In this document: positions 1 through 15,825 of the stretch, in pieces | How positions within the stretch are numbered: the stretch's first letter is position 1 | Layout of the letters: every line of letters begins with the position of its first letter | Assembly (NCBI RefSeq): GCF_026015965.1 | Contig: NZ_CP110383.1 | Coordinates: 1,181,501 to 1,245,500 of the forward strand | From: Selenomonas sputigena | Lineage (GTDB): Bacteria; Bacillota; Negativicutes; Selenomonadales; Selenomonadaceae | Direction of reading: 5' to 3' | DNA: 64,000 bases | The notes under the pieces: model-generated | The model's database searches: none | Told to the model about the DNA's origin: nothing | What the model saw: only the letters and a program-made list of their open reading frames with translations | Made by a program: the position numbers and the translations under genes

Positions 1-674
1 ATGAGAAGCTCCGCTGCCGGCACGACATCCATCTCAGACAGGGCGAGATACGACGGAAACTGCCCCTCGACGCGCAGGGAAAGAAACCCGAGCAAGCGGC
101 ACAATTCCTTCACGTACTCGCCGTGGACGCCGCCGCAGTCGCCGAGCAGCACGACGCTTCCCGCACGGCGCTCTGCCGGCTTCATGAAGCGATCGACGAG
201 CACGCGTGCAGCGTCAAGGTAGCCTGCATAATACTCGCCGTCAAGAAAGCCGTGCGCCGAGACGGCGCTGACGGGCAGGCCAAGCTCTTGCTCCATCTCC
301 TCAGCCACGGCGCACGTATCGTCGCCGATGACGCCGCTCACACAGGAATTGGCGATAAATATCGCTTGCGGCTGATATTTTTCTGCGGCGAAGCGTATGC
401 ACTCGCGCAGACGACCCTCGCCGCCAAAAATCGCCTCTGCGTCCGACAACGAGCTTGTCAGAAGCGGCACAGGCGAGAGGCGCACCTTCGTTCCCGCCGC
501 ACGAAGGCGATGGAAACTTCCCACATCCATGCCATGGGCGATGTGAGCGCACGGACGCGGGCTGTGGAAGATGACGAGAGCGCCGCGCACGAAGGAAAGC
601 GCACGCCAGACGCCCGGCATGCTGCAGCTGCAATTCGTGCGGCGCATCACCACACGTTTCGCTTCAGTTCCCAT
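1..674 (-). CDS. Nitrogenase component 1 (NifD/NifK-like) protein, 3' part cut by window edge
   Basis: This reading frame opens with ATG at 674 and runs off the left edge without a stop, giving the first 224 or so residues. The start lies inside the end of the NifH-like gene (11-nt overlap), which indicates translational coupling. The N-terminal region has cysteines at about residues 15, 17 and 42 ([10 protein letters not shown]), a GGEGRL segment, and [10 protein letters not shown] near residue 110. These are the kinds of cysteine and IGDD blocks found around the P-cluster or 4Fe-4S site of the nitrogenase component 1 superfamily (NifD, NifK, BchN, BchB, CfbD). Together with the NifH-like protein it should form a two-component reductase. 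Because the locus is otherwise devoted to tetrapyrrole chemistry, a ring or metal-centre reductase is more likely than dinitrogen reduction, but that is inference. Whether a second component 1 subunit follows cannot be seen. Confidence 0.82.
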
Positions 675-1482
675 AGCTTTCCACCAGATCTTCCAACTCT
701 TCAAATGCCATCGGCTTGGGGATGACGAGATCCGCATTTCCCTCAATCGCCGCCGCAAGTTCTTCGTAAACCTTCGCCTGTGCGGAATCCGGCGCGTAGG
801 CGATGAGCGTCTGCCGATGGATCTCCGCCTCGTGTACGGCGGCAGAGCGCGGGATGTAGGCGATGAGCTTTGTGCCGAGGCGTGCGGCAAAGGCTTCCAA
901 AAGCTCCTTCTCGCGTGCGACATCGCGCCCGTTGCCGATGATGCCGCCGAGCTTCACGACGCCTCGCGCAGCGAAGCGGCGCACGCCCTTGGCGATGTTG
1001 TTCGCCGCGTAGAGCGACATGAGCTCCCCCGAGGAAACGATGTAGATTTCCTCGGCATAGCCCTCTCGTATCGGCACGGCGAAACCACCGCAGACGACGT
1101 CGCCGAGTACATCGTAGATGGCGACATCGACATCGTCAAACGCATGGAGCGCCTTGAGCCTTTCGAGCGCCACGATGATGCCGCGCCCCGCGCATCCGAC
1201 GCCCGGCTCGGGGCCGCCCGCCTCAATGCAGCGCACACCGCCGTATCCCTCATGCGCGATTTCTGCAAGAGAGAGTGCCGCGCCCTTCTTGCTGCGCTCC
1301 GCATCGAGCACAGTGAGCGGCGCAATGCGCCCCAGGAGAAGCCGCGTCGAATCGTTCTTCGGGTCGCAGCCGATCTGACAGACCTTCTTTCCCCCGCGCG
1401 AAAACGCCGCCGATACATTGGCGGCAGTCGTCGATTTGCCGATGCCGCCCTTGCCGTAAAACGCAATCTTTTTCAATCTCAA
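664..1482 (-). CDS. NifH/BchL-family ATP-dependent iron protein
   Basis: This 272-residue protein starts at TTG 1482, behind an AAAGGCGG ribosome site. It is a dimeric MinD/NifH-type P-loop ATPase that would pass electrons from a bridging 4Fe-4S cluster to a component 1 partner. The P-loop GKGGIGKS lies at residues 10-17, switch [11 protein letters not shown] at 38-47, and both cluster cysteines sit in near-perfect NifH context: C97 in [13 protein letters not shown] and C131 in [17 protein letters not shown]. The length is slightly shorter than typical NifH (about 290). It overlaps the downstream component 1 gene by 11 nt and follows a metal-chelate binding protein by 20 nt. No nifB, nifE, nifN or molybdenum genes are nearby, so this is a nitrogenase-like, not a nitrogen-fixing, iron protein. 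The family call is firm; the substrate is unknown. Confidence 0.93.
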
Positions 1483-1502: not shown

Positions 1503-2504
1503 TTACTCCACCGCCGAGAGAAATTCCTGCCGCGATTGGCGAAAAGCGTCACCGTAAAGAATCCATGCCGTTTCCTGCACGCCGAAGACGATGTTCTGTG
1601 AAAGATTGTAGACGTAACGCGCCCACGGATGGCCGATCTGCTTTTCCCGCACGGCTGTCATCTGCTGAAGAGACGGATCTTCCATGTACTGCCTGCCGTA
1701 ATTCTCTTCACGCGTTTCTGCGTCTTCGTAACTCGGAAGGAAGATGTAGTCGGGATTCGCCGCGACGAGCTGCTCCTTCGTCATCTCCTGTCCCATGCGG
1801 TTTCCTGCGGCGGCCTTTGCGTTGATCGACGCCGTATGGCTGCAAAGCTCATCGAAGGTGCAGCCGGCGCCGCCGTAGTTGGGCATGATGGAGATGAGCG
1901 CGATGCTCTTGTGCTTCTTTTCCTCGGGAACATCCTTCATCTTCTCTTCGATCTCCGCGAGTTTTTCCTCCATCTTCGCGATCAGTCGTTCGCCGCGCTC
2001 CTTCTCATCGACGGCTGCTGCAAAGAGGCGGATGTTGGCATGGATGTCCTCCATCGTCGCCGCCGCACGGCAGACGACGACCGGCACGCCAAGCTCGCGC
2101 ATGGCATCAGCGTTCTCGCGGGGAAGCCACGGCGTGACGATAATGAGGTCGGGCGAGAGCGCGGCGACCTGCTCGACAGACGGACTGCGCGTGATGACCG
2201 TGGGAATTTTCCCGCGCACCCACGGCACATTCGTATGCTTCTCGTCCGCGAGCGAGTCGTTGACTGCCGCCATGCGCTCCGGCTCGACAAGACCGAGCAT
2301 CATTTCATCCGTGCCCGCGCTGATCGTCAAGATGCGCCGGGGCTTATGCGGAATCTCGACGACAGTTCCCTCCGCATCGGTCACACGGTACGCGCTCGAC
2401 GCCTCCTCCTTTTCGCCCATGCAGCCCGTCAGAAAGAGCGCAAAAAGGAGCGCGGCGCATGCGACGACTGCTGCAAATCGCGGATACTTCTTTGCCTTAT
2501 ACAA
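1503..2504 (-). CDS. ABC-transporter metal-chelate/B12-type substrate-binding lipoprotein (copy 1 of 3)
   Basis: The protein is a helical-backbone (BtuF/FepB-type) periplasmic binding protein of about 333 residues that would hand a metal chelate to an inner-membrane ABC permease. The start chosen is TTG 2504, because it sits behind GAGAGGG, overlaps the CobN stop by 8 nt and gives a clean lipoprotein signal ending in the lipobox LTGC. Longer in-frame starts would add an arginine-rich stretch inside cobN. The motifs RILTISAGTDEMMLGL and SPDLIIVTPW are typical of the family. It resembles the two other binding proteins in the same operon (10400-11410 and 12482-13480), so these are paralogues with possibly different ligands. 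No permease or ATPase gene lies in the window. Confidence 0.88.
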   Translation of the reverse strand: MYKAKKYPRFAAVVACAALLFALFLTGCMGEKEEASSAYRVTDAEGTVVEIPHKPRRILTISAGTDEMMLGLVEPERMAAVNDSLADEKHTNVPWVRGKIPTVITRSPSVEQVAALSPDLIIVTPWLPRENADAMRELGVPVVVCRAAATMEDIHANIRLFAAAVDEKERGERLIAKMEEKLAEIEEKMKDVPEEKKHKSIALISIMPNYGGAGCTFDELCSHTASINAKAAAGNRMGQEMTKEQLVAANPDYIFLPSYEDAETREENYGRQYMEDPSLQQMTAVREKQIGHPWARYVYNLSQNIVFGVQETAWILYGDAFRQSRQEFLSAVE

Positions 2505-5500
2505 TTTGTTCCGCCCTCTCTTCCAAATCGCCCTCGATGGAGAGGAACAGCTCGCGCAATTCCTCCTTCGTCTCCTCACGCGCTTTCCACAAGCCGCGCT
2601 GCTCCGCCTCTAGCAGCGTTTCCGCCATGCGGTGCAGCGCCCAGGGGTTGACCTCCTGCAGCCACTCCTGCATCGACGCGTCGAGCACATACTTGCGCGC
2701 ATATCCTTCGTACATCCAATCCTCCATGACGGCGCTCGTCGCATCCCATTGATAGCTGTGCGCGAGATAATTCGCAAGGTCGGAAGCTCCCTTGTAGCCA
2801 TGCTCCTTCATGCCCTCGATGAATTTCGGATTCATCGCCTCGCCGCGGAACAGCCGCTCGGCTTCTGCGGCGACGGTGCGCACGACGATGCGCTGACGGT
2901 CGCTCGTATCGCCGCTGTAGGAACGCGGCGCCTTGCCCGTGAGCGCACGCACAGTGGCAATCATGCCGCCGTGGTAGGCGTTGTAATCGTCCGAGCTGAA
3001 CATGTGCGTCTCGCGCGTGTCCTCGTTCTTGACCGTGACATCAAGCTCCTTCATGCGCCGCTGGAAAAGCTCGGGATCGTAGCCGCGCGCCACGCTGTCC
3101 GCGCCGTACGCCGTGCCCGAAAAGCGCGTGTAGACGGCCGCGAGATCGTCGAGCGTCTGCCATGCCTTCGACTCCAAAAGGTCGCCGACGCCCGCGCCGT
3201 AAGCGCCCGGCGGGTCGCCGAAGATACGGCACGAGGCGCGTTCCCAAGCGAGAGCATGCTCTTCGCCCTGCTCTTCGAGCCATGCCGTGTCCGCGAGGAT
3301 GTGCTTGCGCACGAAGTTTTCATCTGCGCTCTCATCCTGCGCTGCTGCAAGCTTCACAGCCTCGTCGACCCAGCGGATGGCGTTCGGCACGGCATCGCGG
3401 AAGAGACCGCTGATGCGCGCCGTCACGTCGATGCGCGGCCGCTTGAGCTTGGCGAGAGGGATGACCTCAAGCCCGACGACGCGCTGCGACGGTCTCTGCC
3501 AGACGGGGCGCACGCCCATGAGGTAGAACAGCTCGGCTATGCACTGTCCATGACTGCGCATGTTTGAGCCTGCCCAGAAGACGATGCCGACCGCCTCCGG
3601 GTAGCGTCCCTCCTCGCTGATATACTGCTCGACGAGCGCATCGCCCAGTTCCTTGCCGTACTCCCACGCCGCGGGCGTCGGCAGACAGCGCGGATCGAGT
3701 CCGTAGAAGTTGCGTCCCGTCGGCAGGACGTCTGCGCCGTTCGTCGTCGGCGCTCCCGCCGGCCCCGGCTCGATGTAGCCGCCCGAAAGAGCGCGGAGCG
3801 TGCCCGTCAACTCCTCCTCCGTGCGCAGGAGACGCGGCACGATCTTCTCCGTAACTTCGCCGAGCGCCGCCAGAAGTCCTTCCCTGCCCGCTGCACTGTA
3901 CGAGGCGAACGGTTCCAAAGCCAACGCTTCTCTCGCCGCCTGCGGCATGTAGGCGCGCGCGGCGAGGCGCACGAGAAGCAGGCGCATGAGGTCTTCCACC
4001 GCATCGAGCTTTCTGCCGTACGTCATGCCGTCCTCCGTCATGCGTTCGCTATGCTCCAAAAGCTCTTCGTAATCGTAGCCCTCTTCCTTGGCGATGAGAC
4101 GCAGGAGCGACGGCTCGCCGCCATGCTCGACGCGCACGAGCGCGAGCACGAGGTCTAAGAGTTTTTCAGCTTCCGGAACTTGCCCGAGGATATGAAGTCC
4201 CGTGCGGATCTGCATGTTCTTGATGTCCGTCACATAATTGTGCAGAGCAGCGACATAGGCGTCGAAGTCCTCGCCTTCCTCGATGGAATCCTCGAAATGG
4301 CAGAGCGCCGCCTTCTCGCGCACGATTTCCTGTACCGCTGTCAGATTGTCAGGCTGAGCCGCACGGAAATGAACGTACTCGTCGAGCGCCTGCTCAAGCT
4401 CCTGCAGCTCGTCGAAAGCGCCCGCGAGCTGCATCGGCGGCGAAAGATGGCTGATGAGGCACGCTGCGCCGCGCCTTTTTGCCTGTATGCCCTCGCCTAC
4501 AATCGTGATCCAGTAGGGATATACGTCGGGCAGATCGCCAAGCGAGACGTCGGGATAGCATTCGTTCGAGAGCGCCGTACTCTTGCCCGGCAGCCACTCC
4601 AACGAGCCGTGCGTGCCGACGTGGACGACGGCGTCCGCCTGCCACAGATCGCGCAGCCAATGATAAAAGCCGATGTAGTGATGTGTGGGCGCGGCGTCCG
4701 GCGAATGCAGCAGCTTGCCCGGATCCTCGCCGAAGCCGCGCGGCGGCTGCACCGTAAGAAAGATATTGCCGTTGAGCGTGCCGGGCACGAGCAGCGTGCC
4801 GTCGTAGTTGAACACCTCGCCCGGCGCTTCGCCCCAATCCTTTCTCAGATGTTCCTTGACCTTTTGCGGCAGCTCCTTGAAGAATCTTTCATACTGCGCC
4901 GCCGTAAGCTGTCCGTCGGCATTCTTTACCCGCTCTTCACTCATGAAGCGGCGGTCATTCGTCGCGTGATTCGTAAAAATATCCATGAGCTCTTGGCTGC
5001 TCTCCGGCACGAAATCGACGCGATAGCACGCCTCACGCATCCTCGCGAGGAGGCGGCGCACGCTCTCTGGCGAGTCAAGCCCCGCCGCACTGCCGATGTT
5101 CGCATTCGTCGGCGGATAGTTGTGAAAGACGATGGCTATCTTCTTCTCGCCGTTCGCCTTATGGCGCAGATTCGCCCACTTCTTCGCCTTTCGCGCCAGA
5201 CGCTCCATGCGCTCCTCAAGCGGCGCATAGCGAGGCGTTCCCGTCTCATCGAGCACCTTCGCCGCAATCGGCACGGCATGAAGGACGCCGTCGAACTCCG
5301 GCATACAGACGCTGAAGGACACCTCCATCGGGTCGAGACCCGCAGGCGACCTTTCCCATTCTTCCTTGGGCGCAAGCACCGTATACGCCTCAAGAAGCGG
5401 CACGCCGAGCGCATAGAGGTCTTCTATGCGCGTACCGCCCGCTTTGATGGAAAACTTCATCGTCGTGATGATGGCGTCAACGACGGTCTTCCCGTCGCGA

Positions 5501-10399: not shown

Positions 10400-11410
10400 T
10401 CACTCATCGACTGCCGAAATATGCGCATCATCAGGCAGATAAAATTCATCGCCATAAACCCTGTAGGCGATTTCCTGCACGCCGTAGACAAAGTCCTGCG
10501 AACAGTTGTAGAGGAAGGACGAGCGGGGCTTCACAAGGCTGTGAGTTTTGAGCGCCTTGAGCGTCTGAAGAGCCGGATCTTCCGTATAGCTGCGAATGAA
10601 CTCATCGAGCCATGCCTGCCCCTTCCATGGATAATCGGGCAAAAACAGTATGTCGGGATTGATCGATAGAATCACCTCCTTCGTCACTTCCTGCCCATTG
10701 CGCAGTCCGTAGGCGGAAACACCGTTGATGACGCCCGCATAGTGACAGGCGTCGTCGAAGCTCGATCCCTTGCCGCCGTATGTGGGCATGAGCGAGAGGA
10801 ACACGACGCTCTTCCTCTTCTCCTGTGGAATGGCGTCGACCTTCGTCTTGATCTCCGCCAGCTTTTCATCCATCTTCTTGAGCAAGATTTCACCCCTTCT
10901 CTTCTCCCCGATGGTTTCCGTCGCAAGGCGCACGAGATCCTTGACCTCTGCGAGATTATGCGGGCCTCTGCCGATGACGACTTTCAGTCCTGCATCGCGC
11001 AGCGGATCGGCAAGTTCCATATACTGCCAATCTGCAACAAGAACCACGTCGGGATGAAGGGAGACGATGTATTCTACGCTCGGCTGATGTATCGTCTCAG
11101 GTATTTGCGAAGCGAGCTCCACCATATTGGAATTGACGGATTCCTTCATGCTCGAATGAACGGCGACAAGCCTTTCAGGCGGCACGACGCTGAGAACGAT
11201 CTGATCCAAGGTCGCCGACAAAGTGACGATGCGCTGCGGCGGAGTGTCGAAATGTATCGTGCGCCCCGTGATGTCCGTCACCGAATACGATGTCGAAGAA
11301 TTCGCAGACGGCTCCTCCACATTCTTTTCGCCGCCGCACGATGTTGTCAGAAAAAGCAGCAAAACGACGACAACGAGGAGCGACGATTGCATGAAGACCT
11401 TACTCCGCAC
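10400..11410 (-). CDS. ABC-transporter metal-chelate/B12-type substrate-binding lipoprotein (copy 2 of 3)
   Basis: This is a 336-residue helical-backbone substrate-binding protein with a lipoprotein signal peptide and lipobox LTTSC. The start is GTG 11410, supported by a GGAAGGG ribosome site and an 11-nt overlap with the radical SAM stop; an in-frame ATG six codons downstream is an alternative. Segments [14 protein letters not shown] and [10 protein letters not shown] align with the same blocks in the other two binding proteins of the operon. The ligand is probably a corrinoid, haem or siderophore-like chelate. No cognate permease or ATPase is encoded in the window, so it must use components from elsewhere. 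Confidence 0.88.
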
Positions 11411-12482
11411 GATACCCTTCCTTTCCGAAAACTGCCGATGCTGCAGCCCTCTTCAACGCACATTCCGCCGCGCACGGCTCTTCTTGTTCCATTCCCAGCC
11501 AGCGCGCGAAGCAGCCGCCTCCGCAGGCGGCAAAATCGTGACATCGTCGGCAAAAATCCATGCTCCGCTGCATCTTGGCAGATACTTCCTGCAGACGACG
11601 CAAATTCACGCCCTGCATAACATTGCCTAGGAAGAAGCGCTTATCGCCGATGAAAGAGGAGCAAGCGTAGATGCCGCCATCGACGTCGACGTGGACGCCT
11701 TCGCCGTTCATCGCATAGCAGTGAGAAAAATCGCTCCCGCCGCGCCCTGCGATGTCTCTCGCCTGCTCCTCCTGCGATATGGCGAGACGACGCCCCGTCA
11801 AGCGATAAAGTGCATCGCGCCGAGCAAAAACCTCGCGCATCGCCGCCGCCATATCGCTTTCTCGCGGCAAAGCGGCGTTCGTGCCGCGCCCCTGCGCACG
11901 CAGGAGGTCGAAACCGACGCGATGCACATTGCCAAAGTAATAGGCCATATCGACGATATCGGTCAGGCTGTAAACATTCTCCGCCGTCACGACGCACGTC
12001 AGTCCGATGCCGACGCCGCGCCGCGCAAGGCGCTCGATGCCCGCCGCCACGTCAGCGGCAGAACCTCTGCCGTCCGAATATTGCCTTTGGCGATCATGCA
12101 CTGCCGACCTGCCATCGAGGCTCACGCCGATGCCCATGTTGGAATCGCATAGGATATTCACCGCCTCTTCCGTCAGCAGCGTGCCGTTCGTCTGAACAGC
12201 CATGTGCGCCTCGATGCGATGATCGCGCACATAGGCGGCGATACGTGCAAGGAGCGGCAATGCAAGCAGAGGTTCGCCGCCCGAAAACTGCAGGAGAAAC
12301 GGCTCCCCGCAGGAGGCAGCCAGATCGACAGCCCGCCGCGCCGTTTCCCATGCCATCGTGTGCCTCGCCTGACCGCTTGCATAGCAATAGCGACAGGCGA
12401 GGTTGCAGTCTCCCGTCAGGCTCAGCACCAGCATCTTCAGCCCCATCGCCGCCCCTTTCCGGCACGTTTGCACATCAAGCAT
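11400..12482 (-). CDS. Radical SAM/SPASM-domain protein within the B12-regulated operon
   Basis: The 360-residue protein carries the radical SAM signature CNLACRYC near residue 27, the SGGEPLL block, and a C-terminal cysteine-rich SPASM-like region (HCYAM, ACSSF, then CRRCHDFAACGGGC) that should hold auxiliary 4Fe-4S clusters. ATG 12482 overlaps the upstream TGA by one base; a second in-frame ATG twelve residues later (MGLKMLVL) is also plausible. SPASM enzymes usually modify peptides or proteins, such as sulfatase and quinohemoprotein maturases, while related folds act on tetrapyrroles (AhbC, AhbD, NirJ). No short peptide substrate gene is evident beside it. Its place between two chelate-binding proteins suggests a tetrapyrrole role, which is inference. 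Confidence 0.88.
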   Translation of the reverse strand: MLDVQTCRKGAAMGLKMLVLSLTGDCNLACRYCYASGQARHTMAWETARRAVDLAASCGEPFLLQFSGGEPLLALPLLARIAAYVRDHRIEAHMAVQTNGTLLTEEAVNILCDSNMGIGVSLDGRSAVHDRQRQYSDGRGSAADVAAGIERLARRGVGIGLTCVVTAENVYSLTDIVDMAYYFGNVHRVGFDLLRAQGRGTNAALPRESDMAAAMREVFARRDALYRLTGRRLAISQEEQARDIAGRGGSDFSHCYAMNGEGVHVDVDGGIYACSSFIGDKRFFLGNVMQGVNLRRLQEVSAKMQRSMDFCRRCHDFAACGGGCFARWLGMEQEEPCAAECALKRAAASAVFGKEGYRAE

Positions 12483-13480
12483 CAATTTCCTGCACTCGCG
12501 CCGCCTTCATCGGCAAAACGCTCAGGATAAACGGTCTTTGCCAGCACATAGACGGCTTCGACGGCATTTTGCGAGGCGCTGTAGCGGTACGTATCGGGCA
12601 CGCAGTAGAGACGGTTCTCGCGCACCGCCTTTACATGCTTGAACAACGGGTCATTGCGCAGCTTCTCACGGAATTCTTCCGTCTTTTCCCCCTCGGCGCT
12701 CCATGACGGCAGCAGGAACACGTCGGGGTCGAGCGCGACGACCTGCTCCATGGAGATGCTGTTGTCCTTCGTGAGACCCGCCATCGCTGCGCCGTTTCTG
12801 AGCGCGGCATGGCGGCACATATCGTCGAAGAGGTCGTCGCGCCGCCCGAAGACGCCGCTGAAAGCGAAAGCGACGACAATCGGCCTCTCGTCTTCGGGAA
12901 TGTCCGCCGTGCGCCGCGTCACATCCGCCAAGCGCTCATGCAGCCTTCCAGTCAAGGCCGCCGCTTCCTCTTCCCTGCCGATCACCTTGCCGATGGACTC
13001 GATGCGTGGAAAAACCGCCTCGATACTCTTGGGCGTTTTGGAAACAAAGACCGTCAGGCCCAGATCGCGCATACTCGCCACGAGTTCCTTCGGCACGCTG
13101 TCCGTCGTGAGCACAAGGTCGGGATGCTGTGCGAGCACGCGCTCGGGACTCTTGTCGTGCAGCTTGACAGGTACGGCTTTCGCCGCCTCTGCCATGCACG
13201 AAAGCCCCGCATCATCCACGTAGGATGAAAGCGCCGCAATCTGTTCAGGTGGCGCGAGCGCGAGCAAAATTTCATCCGTGCCGAGATTGAGCGAGACGAT
13301 GCGCTGCGGCTTCTCATGCAGCACGATCTCCGTGCCCATATCGTCTGTGCCGCAAAAGAAATCGCCCGCTTCTTCCTCCACCGCCGTTCCCCCGCGCGCA
13401 CATGCGCAGAGGAGGACGGTGACAGCGAGAAGGAGCGCCGGCACCACGCCGCGCCGCCATGCGTCAGAACGTATGCGCAT
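12482..13480 (-). CDS. ABC-transporter metal-chelate/B12-type substrate-binding lipoprotein (copy 3 of 3)
   Basis: This 332-residue protein begins at ATG 13480, inside the last codons of the TonB receptor gene (17-nt overlap). It has a basic N-terminus, a hydrophobic stretch and a lipobox LLCAC, so it should be an outer-leaflet inner-membrane lipoprotein facing the periplasm. The blocks RIVSLNLGTDEILLAL and HPDLVLTTDS match the Peripla_BP_2 (BtuF/FepB) fold. Being directly after the TonB-dependent receptor, it is the most likely periplasmic acceptor for whatever that receptor imports. It is the first of three paralogues in the operon. Confidence 0.88.
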   Translation of the reverse strand: MRIRSDAWRRGVVPALLLAVTVLLCACARGGTAVEEEAGDFFCGTDDMGTEIVLHEKPQRIVSLNLGTDEILLALAPPEQIAALSSYVDDAGLSCMAEAAKAVPVKLHDKSPERVLAQHPDLVLTTDSVPKELVASMRDLGLTVFVSKTPKSIEAVFPRIESIGKVIGREEEAAALTGRLHERLADVTRRTADIPEDERPIVVAFAFSGVFGRRDDLFDDMCRHAALRNGAAMAGLTKDNSISMEQVVALDPDVFLLPSWSAEGEKTEEFREKLRNDPLFKHVKAVRENRLYCVPDTYRYSASQNAVEAVYVLAKTVYPERFADEGGASAGN

Positions 13481-15440: not shown

Positions 15441-15507
15441 CTACATCACCCTTTCCAAAAATAAAGCGCCCCTCCTGCAAGGCAGAAAAGGCGCATAAGG
15501 GCGACGC

Positions 15508-15533
15508 AAAAAAATCCCGGCAGTTTCGCCGGG
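15508..15533 (-). terminator. Intrinsic terminator of the cobalamin riboswitch expression platform
   Basis: On the minus strand a perfect six-base-pair stem, CCCGGC paired with GCCGGG around a six-base loop, is followed by seven Ts. It lies between the B12 aptamer and the receptor start codon, so B12 binding would be expected to favour this hairpin and stop transcription before the operon. Confidence 0.85.
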
Positions 15534-15539
15534 AGGATT

Positions 15540-15778
15540 ATGTTCGTGCAGCCGAAGAAACGCCAAACGGCGCTTCCTTAATCCCCTTCCCATCACTCGC
15601 AGGTCAAATGGCGATTGTCCATCAGGCAGTTCTCCTGGCTCCAGCTCATCGCTCCCTGCGCCTTCCCAAGGCATTCGCCCCAGTGACATTCCTTGCAGGG
15701 TTGCTCGCTGCTACAGTGGCGGGACCGCTCCGGCTTCTACCGAATTCCCTATTAAGTCTTGCGACACCTGATCCAACG
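15540..15778 (-). promoter_or_regulatory. Cobalamin (AdoCbl-type) riboswitch
   Basis: The minus strand holds the hallmark B12 box at 15622-15641 (GAGCCAGGAGAACTGCCTGA). Upstream of it are the conserved AGGGAATTCGGTAGAAGCCGG start and a GGTCCCGCCACTGT segment at about 15700-15725. These are the core elements of the cobalamin aptamer. It sits between a good promoter (15797-15825) and an intrinsic terminator, an arrangement that represses transcription when B12 is plentiful. It controls the operon that begins with the TonB receptor. Outer boundaries are approximate. Confidence 0.9.
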
Positions 15779-15796
15779 ATATGAAATTCCTATAAA

Positions 15797-15825
15797 AGAA
15801 TAGCATTGATTTATTCCTATGTCAA
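15797..15825 (-). promoter_or_regulatory. Sigma70-type promoter for the riboswitch operon
   Basis: On the minus strand TTGACA (15820-15825) and TATTCT (15797-15802) are separated by 17 bases, and TGC in front of the -10 gives an extended -10. Transcription would start a few bases before the aptamer. Confidence 0.8.

Follow-up and report, generated by a model that had tools for sequence, protein, structure and literature searches.

A nitrogenase-like NflHDK system in a cobalamin-riboswitch-headed operon of Selenomonas sputigena, a probable reductase of vitamin B12 metabolism

The genome of Selenomonas sputigena encodes a nitrogenase-like system, NflHDK, within a 14-gene operon of 19.7 kb on the minus strand that has a cobalamin riboswitch at its head (Table 1). 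The window, that is the whole stretch of 64,000 nucleotides analysed here, comprises bases 1181501-1245500 of a complete genome of 2.61 Mb, and the end of the operon lies in the flank fetched to its left (L005; window position = L005 position minus 13501). The B12 riboswitch ahead of the nfl genes and their linkage to chelatase genes are direct observations. We consider it rather probable that NflHDK is a two-component, ATP-driven reductase of B12 metabolism with a corrinoid-type tetrapyrrole as substrate. Somewhat more cautiously, we posit that it acts in B12 salvage or remodelling, on the corrinoid ring or on its cobalt, which would make it the first nitrogenase-superfamily enzyme of B12 metabolism. 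There is a fair chance that NflHDK represents a new function for this superfamily.

Table 1. Features of the nfl operon and its control region, listed 5' to 3' along the operon. Positions are those of the window unless prefixed L005.
Feature	Position	Strand	Evidence or remark
Promoter-like site, TTGACA-17-TATTCT, extended -10	15797..15825	-	10/12 consensus matches
Cobalamin riboswitch, operon head	15608..15786	-	Rfam RF00174, 93.5 bits (gathering 31.5), E 5.9e-22
Two terminator-like hairpins with T tracts	15466..15534	-	stems 15534-15515 and 15494-15466
TonB-dependent outer-membrane receptor, 658 aa	13464..15440	-	PF00593, PF07715
Periplasmic binding protein SBP3	12482..13480	-	PF01497
Radical SAM protein, 361 aa	11400..12485	-	PF04055
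Periplasmic binding protein SBP2	10400..11410	-	PF01497
ChlI-like chelatase AAA+ subunit, 356 aa	9333..10403	-	TIGR02442 491 bits, TIGR02030 410 bits
ChlD-like chelatase AAA+/VWA subunit, 663 aa	7358..9349	-	TIGR02442 571 bits, TIGR02031 408 bits
CbiZ-like adenosylcobinamide amidohydrolase, 375 aa	6224..7351	-	PF01955 205 bits
CobN-type class I chelatase large subunit, 1230 aa	2497..6189	-	TIGR02257 953 bits, cut-off 822
Periplasmic binding protein SBP1	1503..2579	-	PF01497
NflH, NifH-like [4Fe-4S] ATPase, 272 aa	664..1482	-	PF00142 (Fer4_NifH) 363 bits
NflD, component-1 protein, 433 aa	1..674, continuing left of the window to L005:12874	-	PF00148 188 bits
NflK, NifK-type component-1 protein, 424 aa	L005:11607-12881	-	PF00148 195 bits
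ABC ATPase (BtuCD-type transporter)	L005:11509-10667	-	after NflK
FecCD permease (BtuCD-type transporter)	L005:10670-9630	-	after ABC ATPase

Intergenic gaps do not exceed 97 bp all along the operon, down to the FecCD permease. As the initial annotation had stated, the ATG of nflD at 674 lies inside nflH (11-bp overlap) and the NifH-like gene is intact, its P-loop, C97 and C131 being invariant in nine orthologues; nflH itself starts with TTG at 1482 or 1476. A search to the left of the window for a second component-1 gene, which had been proposed as a check, recovered nflK, the start of which overlaps nflD by 8 bases. Since this second, NifK-type gene lies next to nflD, the system is a full NflHDK. 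The chelatase large subunit exceeds the TIGR02257 cut-off, has its ATPase partners ChlI and ChlD adjacent, and matches PDB entries of CobN with 767 bits and of HmuS with 394 bits. Among the uptake genes, the TonB receptor scores higher with siderophore profiles (166 bits) than with B12 (97) or hemin (85) profiles and is not clearly BtuB. The binding proteins and the receptor show weak heme-family similarity, and their family matches do not single out one imported ligand. The SBP1 reading frame overlaps the end of cobN and its true start may be further in. The radical SAM protein reached no NCBIfam equivalog cut-off, the best match being PapB (151 against 340).

The tetrapyrrole context that had been read from the window alone is strongly supported, and it is narrowed to vitamin B12 by the riboswitch at the operon head, one of eight cobalamin riboswitches in the home genome. 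The promoter-like site directly upstream of it has the top score in 16.5 kb, as a consensus match only, and the hairpins between riboswitch and TonB gene likely form the expression platform. On these sequence features the operon is assigned to the B12 (cobalamin-riboswitch) regulon, and, if its riboswitch works as others of the cobalamin class do, the operon should be turned on when B12 is scarce. The nearest genome of the same genus and Selenomonas G037 have the riboswitch motif ahead of this operon as well. Cobalamin riboswitches confirmed with Rfam end 126-161 bp before nflH in Sporomusa ovata (L067), Anaerospora (L070) and the MAG INTA.CYC.032 (L093); others precede CbiK-nflHDK in Schwartzia and CbiK-nflDK-CbiZ-BtuR in Pelosinus. 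A first, loose regular expression matched nearly as often in shuffled DNA (315 vs 275) and was dropped for a stricter motif and then Rfam; the strict motif scan gave 30 riboswitch motifs around Nfl loci, where shuffled DNA would lead one to expect 0.33. Schwartzia succinivorans also carries a ZMP/ZTP riboswitch just downstream of nflK (L051:12656-12736), ahead of a 427-aa ORF.

The initial annotation had placed the genes outside any nif context, and the complete 2.61-Mb genome bears this out: NifB is represented only by a 22.6-bit fragment (cut-off 343.65), and PF00142 gave one strong match. None of the Nif, Bch or Cfb equivalog cut-offs of NCBIfam is reached by NflH, NflD or NflK. NflH scores 379 bits with the NifH model TIGR01287, under the cut-off of 394.35, and NflD and NflK score at most about 110 bits with Nif profiles, the cut-offs of which lie near 330-650. 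The scores also fall below the cut-offs for BchLNB (BchL 225 of 345, BchB 49 and 80 of 490, BchN 34 of 420) and for CfbCD (CfbC 366 of 402, CfbD 36 and 44 of 268). In trees that held no Mar, Isr, Vnf or Anf references and in which the BchN, BchB, BchY and BchZ branches are long, NflH forms one clade (SH-aLRT 95), sister to NifH and separate from CfbC, BchL and BchX, while NflD and NflK form one clade each (bootstrap 97 and 100), apart from NifDK, BchNB and CfbD. The phylogeny proposed as a check thus puts all three proteins outside the Nif clades, with no nif neighbours.

NflDK nevertheless retains the ligand set of a P-cluster. C17, C42 and C111 of NflD are invariant (65 sequences), as are C18 and C43 of NflK (66 sequences); 91% of the sequences retain the third cysteine of NflK, which the second copies of oral Selenomonas have lost. 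Together these residues align with the six P-cluster cysteines of NifDK, and the aligned sequences contain no further invariant cysteine. Counterparts of the FeMo-cofactor ligands Cys275 and His442 were not found in NflD, in a region where the alignment is weak. A substrate other than dinitrogen, as had been suggested, is well supported, because nifB and the FeMo-cofactor ligand positions are absent and NflH stays below the NifH cut-off; a true nitrogenase is ruled out by the same absences and the missed HMM cut-offs.

Structure searches with the good AlphaFold models of NflD and NflK (pLDDT 87 and 90) listed only proteins of the nitrogenase fold. Among those listed, the NflK model is nearest BchB (Z 38.8, 2.7 Å over 404 residues), followed by MarK (Z 37.3) and the nitrogenase beta chains (Z about 32-35, NifK about 32-34), so that BchB leads Mar by no more than about 1.5 Z. 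The NflD model is nearest MarD (Z 26.4), with NifD, NifEN and BchB tied at 24-25 and no preference for BchNB. By sequence, too, the best PDB match of NflD is MarD, with about 22% of residues identical in the structural alignment.

A scan of about 85,000 species genomes yielded 68 Nfl-clade loci, nearly confined to Negativicutes, plus Pelotomaculum. The clade is present in 76 of 380 Negativicutes genomes and absent from 304. Across the 69 loci of the neighbour table, which includes that of the window, gene content is kept while gene order is reshuffled: binding proteins (39 loci), CobN (38), FecCD (32), TonB (30), ChlI/ChlD (29), CbiZ (26), radical SAM (21) and CbiR-like proteins (19) recur, and CbiK (9) and BtuR (6) are rarer. 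The label CbiR-like refers to the Pfam family AP_endonuc_2, to which CbiR belongs. We narrow the context to corrinoids because of the riboswitches and of the neighbouring CobN/ChlI/ChlD, CbiZ, CbiR-like, CbiK and BtuR genes. CobN is found anywhere in the genome in 71 of the 76 Nfl-bearing Negativicutes, compared with 42 of the 304 without Nfl; at the genus level the counts are 27/29 and 13/73, with a Fisher p of about 1e-12 that is indicative only, because genera are not independent. No corrinoid gene lies nearby in 23 of the 68 loci; these are the second NflDK copies in oral Selenomonas, the Succiniclasticum copies that stand alone, and several short contigs. The link to CobN extends to genus g306, which has stand-alone copies of the Succiniclasticum type according to MAG coordinates: nflHDK stands alone there and CobN is elsewhere in the genome.

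Several loci depart from the common arrangement. A second NflDK pair, 55-58% identical, occurs in many oral Selenomonas and Centipeda (L021, L022, L032-L035, L043-L047, L052). In most cases it has no nflH beside it; serine replaces the third NflK cysteine, and neither B12 genes nor a riboswitch lie nearby. This pair may borrow the main NflH. In Pelosinus (L081:5910-12029, L082, L103), nflDK lies between CbiK and CbiZ-BtuR, again without adjacent nflH, and a third component-1-like gene is present, in L081 preceded by its own cobalamin riboswitch; no NifH-like protein of the NflH clade was found in the P. propionicus genome. In Sporomusa ovata (L067:12634-16287) the riboswitch-led nflHDK is followed by genes for an unknown protein, a NapH-like ferredoxin, a double-cubane-reductase-like HGD-D protein (247/350 bits) and a BadF-type ATPase, and from its sequence this B12 operon is predicted to encode two ATP-driven low-potential reductases. 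MerR-family regulators stand beside nfl in Phascolarctobacterium, Veillonella and another Negativicute (L055:8239-9099, L095:12763-13770, L099:7422-8312) and could sense a corrinoid or a metal. The NflD frame of one MAG (L099:3186-4501) is apparently split into two overlapping ORFs by a frameshift or an assembly error. NifH-NifD fusions of 731-777 aa, next to a NifK-like gene, occur in Lachnospiraceae and Oscillospiraceae (L104, L105, L107-L109, L111-L113, L125, L127); the NflH tree sets them apart as a clade, and none of the other genes of the nfl operon lies near them.

CbiD was found in 18 of 18 Nfl genomes tested, and the anaerobic cbi operon of the home genome looks complete and includes CbiJ. 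NflHDK is therefore not needed for de novo synthesis there and would be an add-on for the acquisition and remodelling of corrinoids, outside the core synthesis. A replacement of CbiJ by NflHDK was rejected for the home genome because CbiJ is present there. The home cbi operon (L171, genome positions 1058000-1077999) adjoins methylmalonyl-CoA mutase and MeaB and has a cobalamin riboswitch at 1077318-1077491.

The riboswitch-headed set of import and rebuilding genes suggests that NflHDK probably reduces a B12-related ring or metal and not dinitrogen. We posit that the NflH dimer (NflH2) would use ATP to drive electrons of low potential into a P-cluster-type cluster between NflD and NflK, and that the electrons would move on to a corrinoid-type tetrapyrrole occupying, as in BchNB, the site of the nitrogenase cofactor. 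As the most likely chemistry we tentatively put forward that NflHDK reduces the macrocycle of a corrinoid or corrinoid precursor that is imported or non-standard; this is favoured because BchLNB, BchXYZ and CfbCD do so and because NflK resembles BchB. Next in line, with a distinctly smaller chance, would be reduction of cobalt to Co(I), as by CobR after CobNST. CobN-ChlI-ChlD would next metallate the product, CbiZ/CbiR would trim it and BtuR would adenosylate it, before it is rebuilt into a cobamide that the cell can use.

Action on the metal alone would make NflHDK a corrinoid activase that brings imported cob(II/III)yrinates and cobinamides to Co(I), for adenosylation by BtuR and for the action of CbiZ, and by analogy an anaerobic counterpart of the flavoprotein CobR. 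This main rival is unlikely, though it has several observations on its side. One is the linkage of nfl to CobN; another is that in the aerobic pathway CobR acts downstream of CobNST and turns Co(II) into Co(I) (PMC7242693). BtuR adjoins NflDK in Pelosinus, Anaerospora, Sporomusa acidovorans and Pelotomaculum, and the S. ovata operon holds a second ATP-driven low-potential module, with the double-cubane-reductase-like protein and the BadF ATPase. However, BtuR adjoins nfl in no more than the six loci counted above, and the characterised tetrapyrrole-linked nitrogenase-like enzymes act on the ring and not on the metal (PMC7242693 and general knowledge).

It is improbable that NflHDK reduces an oxidised early corrin intermediate, such as Co-sirohydrochlorin or Co-factor III, and so feeds the anaerobic pathway. 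CbiK stands immediately before nflHDK or nflDK in Schwartzia, L093 and Pelosinus, which recalls CfbA with CfbCD in F430 synthesis, and the substrate that CfbCD reduces is a metallo-sirohydrochlorin (PMC7242693). The window operon is, however, an uptake operon without CbiK, and the 304 Negativicutes that lack Nfl argue against such a role, even though CbiD accompanies Nfl in every genome tested.

The same low probability is given to a small, non-tetrapyrrole substrate like those of Mar and Isr, with the placement in B12 operons being secondary. The closeness of MarD to NflD in sequence and structure, the six-cysteine P-cluster set as in NifDK-type enzymes, the radical SAM protein of the operon and the stand-alone nfl copies of Succiniclasticum would be consistent with it. 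Against it speak the recurrent linkage to B12 riboswitches and corrinoid genes across shuffled gene orders, and the lack of a nifB-type cofactor route and of invariant cofactor ligands.

Least probable is a role in heme use, in which CobN would work as an HmuS-type de-chelatase that takes iron or another metal out of imported heme, while Nfl supplies the electrons. This was the first idea, raised by TonB, FecCD and CobN; the TonB/FecCD/binding-protein uptake set with a CobN homologue does resemble the Bacteroides hmu operon, and the weak heme-family similarity of binding proteins and receptor points the same way. It was demoted after the cobalamin riboswitch and the CobN and HmuS scores and fits poorly because of the cobalamin riboswitch at the operon head, the CobN-like chelatase and the presence of the ATPases ChlI and ChlD, given that HmuS, the heme de-chelatase and CobN homologue of that operon, needs no ATP (PMC12583661); CbiZ, CbiR-like, BtuR and CbiK neighbours likewise speak against it.

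Nitrogenase-like enzymes have so far been connected with N2, chlorophylls, F430 and small sulfur compounds, and we found none for the B12 branch in the literature searched, which mostly excluded subscription papers, so that a prior mention is possible; the paper on CbiR makes no link to nitrogenase-like genes. Should NflHDK act on corrinoids, one more major group of modified tetrapyrroles would come within the reach of nitrogenase relatives. The puzzling CobN-ChlID genes of anaerobes with a cbi pathway of their own would then have a role open to testing, and it would be seen by what means the abundant Negativicutes of mouth and gut (Selenomonas, Phascolarctobacterium, Dialister, Veillonella) vie for cobamides. 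In metagenomes, nfl genes should not be counted as nitrogen fixation, because NflH is close to NifH.

Compared with known systems, NflHDK resembles nitrogenase itself in its component 2, NflH being up to about 58% identical to NifH, and in the six aligned P-cluster cysteines. The initial annotation had favoured a reductase like BchLNB or CfbCD; the link to tetrapyrroles has held, while membership of either family has not, given the separate clades and the missed cut-offs of both. BchLNB/ChlLNB, the dark-operative protochlorophyllide reductase, shares the three-subunit nitrogenase-like architecture, its ATP-driven tetrapyrrole reduction serves as our working analogy, and its pathway includes the class I chelatase BchH as the nfl operon includes CobN. 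In contrast, BchNB binds a [4Fe-4S] cluster through three cysteines of its N subunit and an Asp of B where NflDK has six P-cluster cysteines, with Pro and Asp in BchB at positions of NflK cysteines; the two systems form separate clades, and the nfl host is a non-phototroph with an operon headed by a B12 riboswitch. CfbCD would resemble NflHDK in a sirohydrochlorin/corrin-branch substrate and a chelatase partner, and NflH scores 366 bits with CfbC, but CfbD is a homodimer without the NifK-type partner that NflHDK has, lacks the first P-cluster cysteine and belongs to an archaeal F430 context.

CfbCD, Mar and Isr are the known Group IV nitrogenase-like enzymes (PMC11423573). Of these, the methylthio-alkane and isethionate reductases MarBHDK and IsrBHDK have the HDK organisation, the P-cluster ligands and a radical SAM gene in the locus, as does nfl, but they stand in a sulfur context, whereas nfl stands in one of B12 salvage. 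The nfl operon holds CobN, ChlI and ChlD like the CobNST or CobN-ChlID systems with CobR. The reduction after chelation is there carried out by the flavoprotein CobR, whereas the reductase of the nfl operon is nitrogenase-like, and the nfl host has the anaerobic, early-cobalt pathway, unlike the aerobic pathway of CobNST and CobR.
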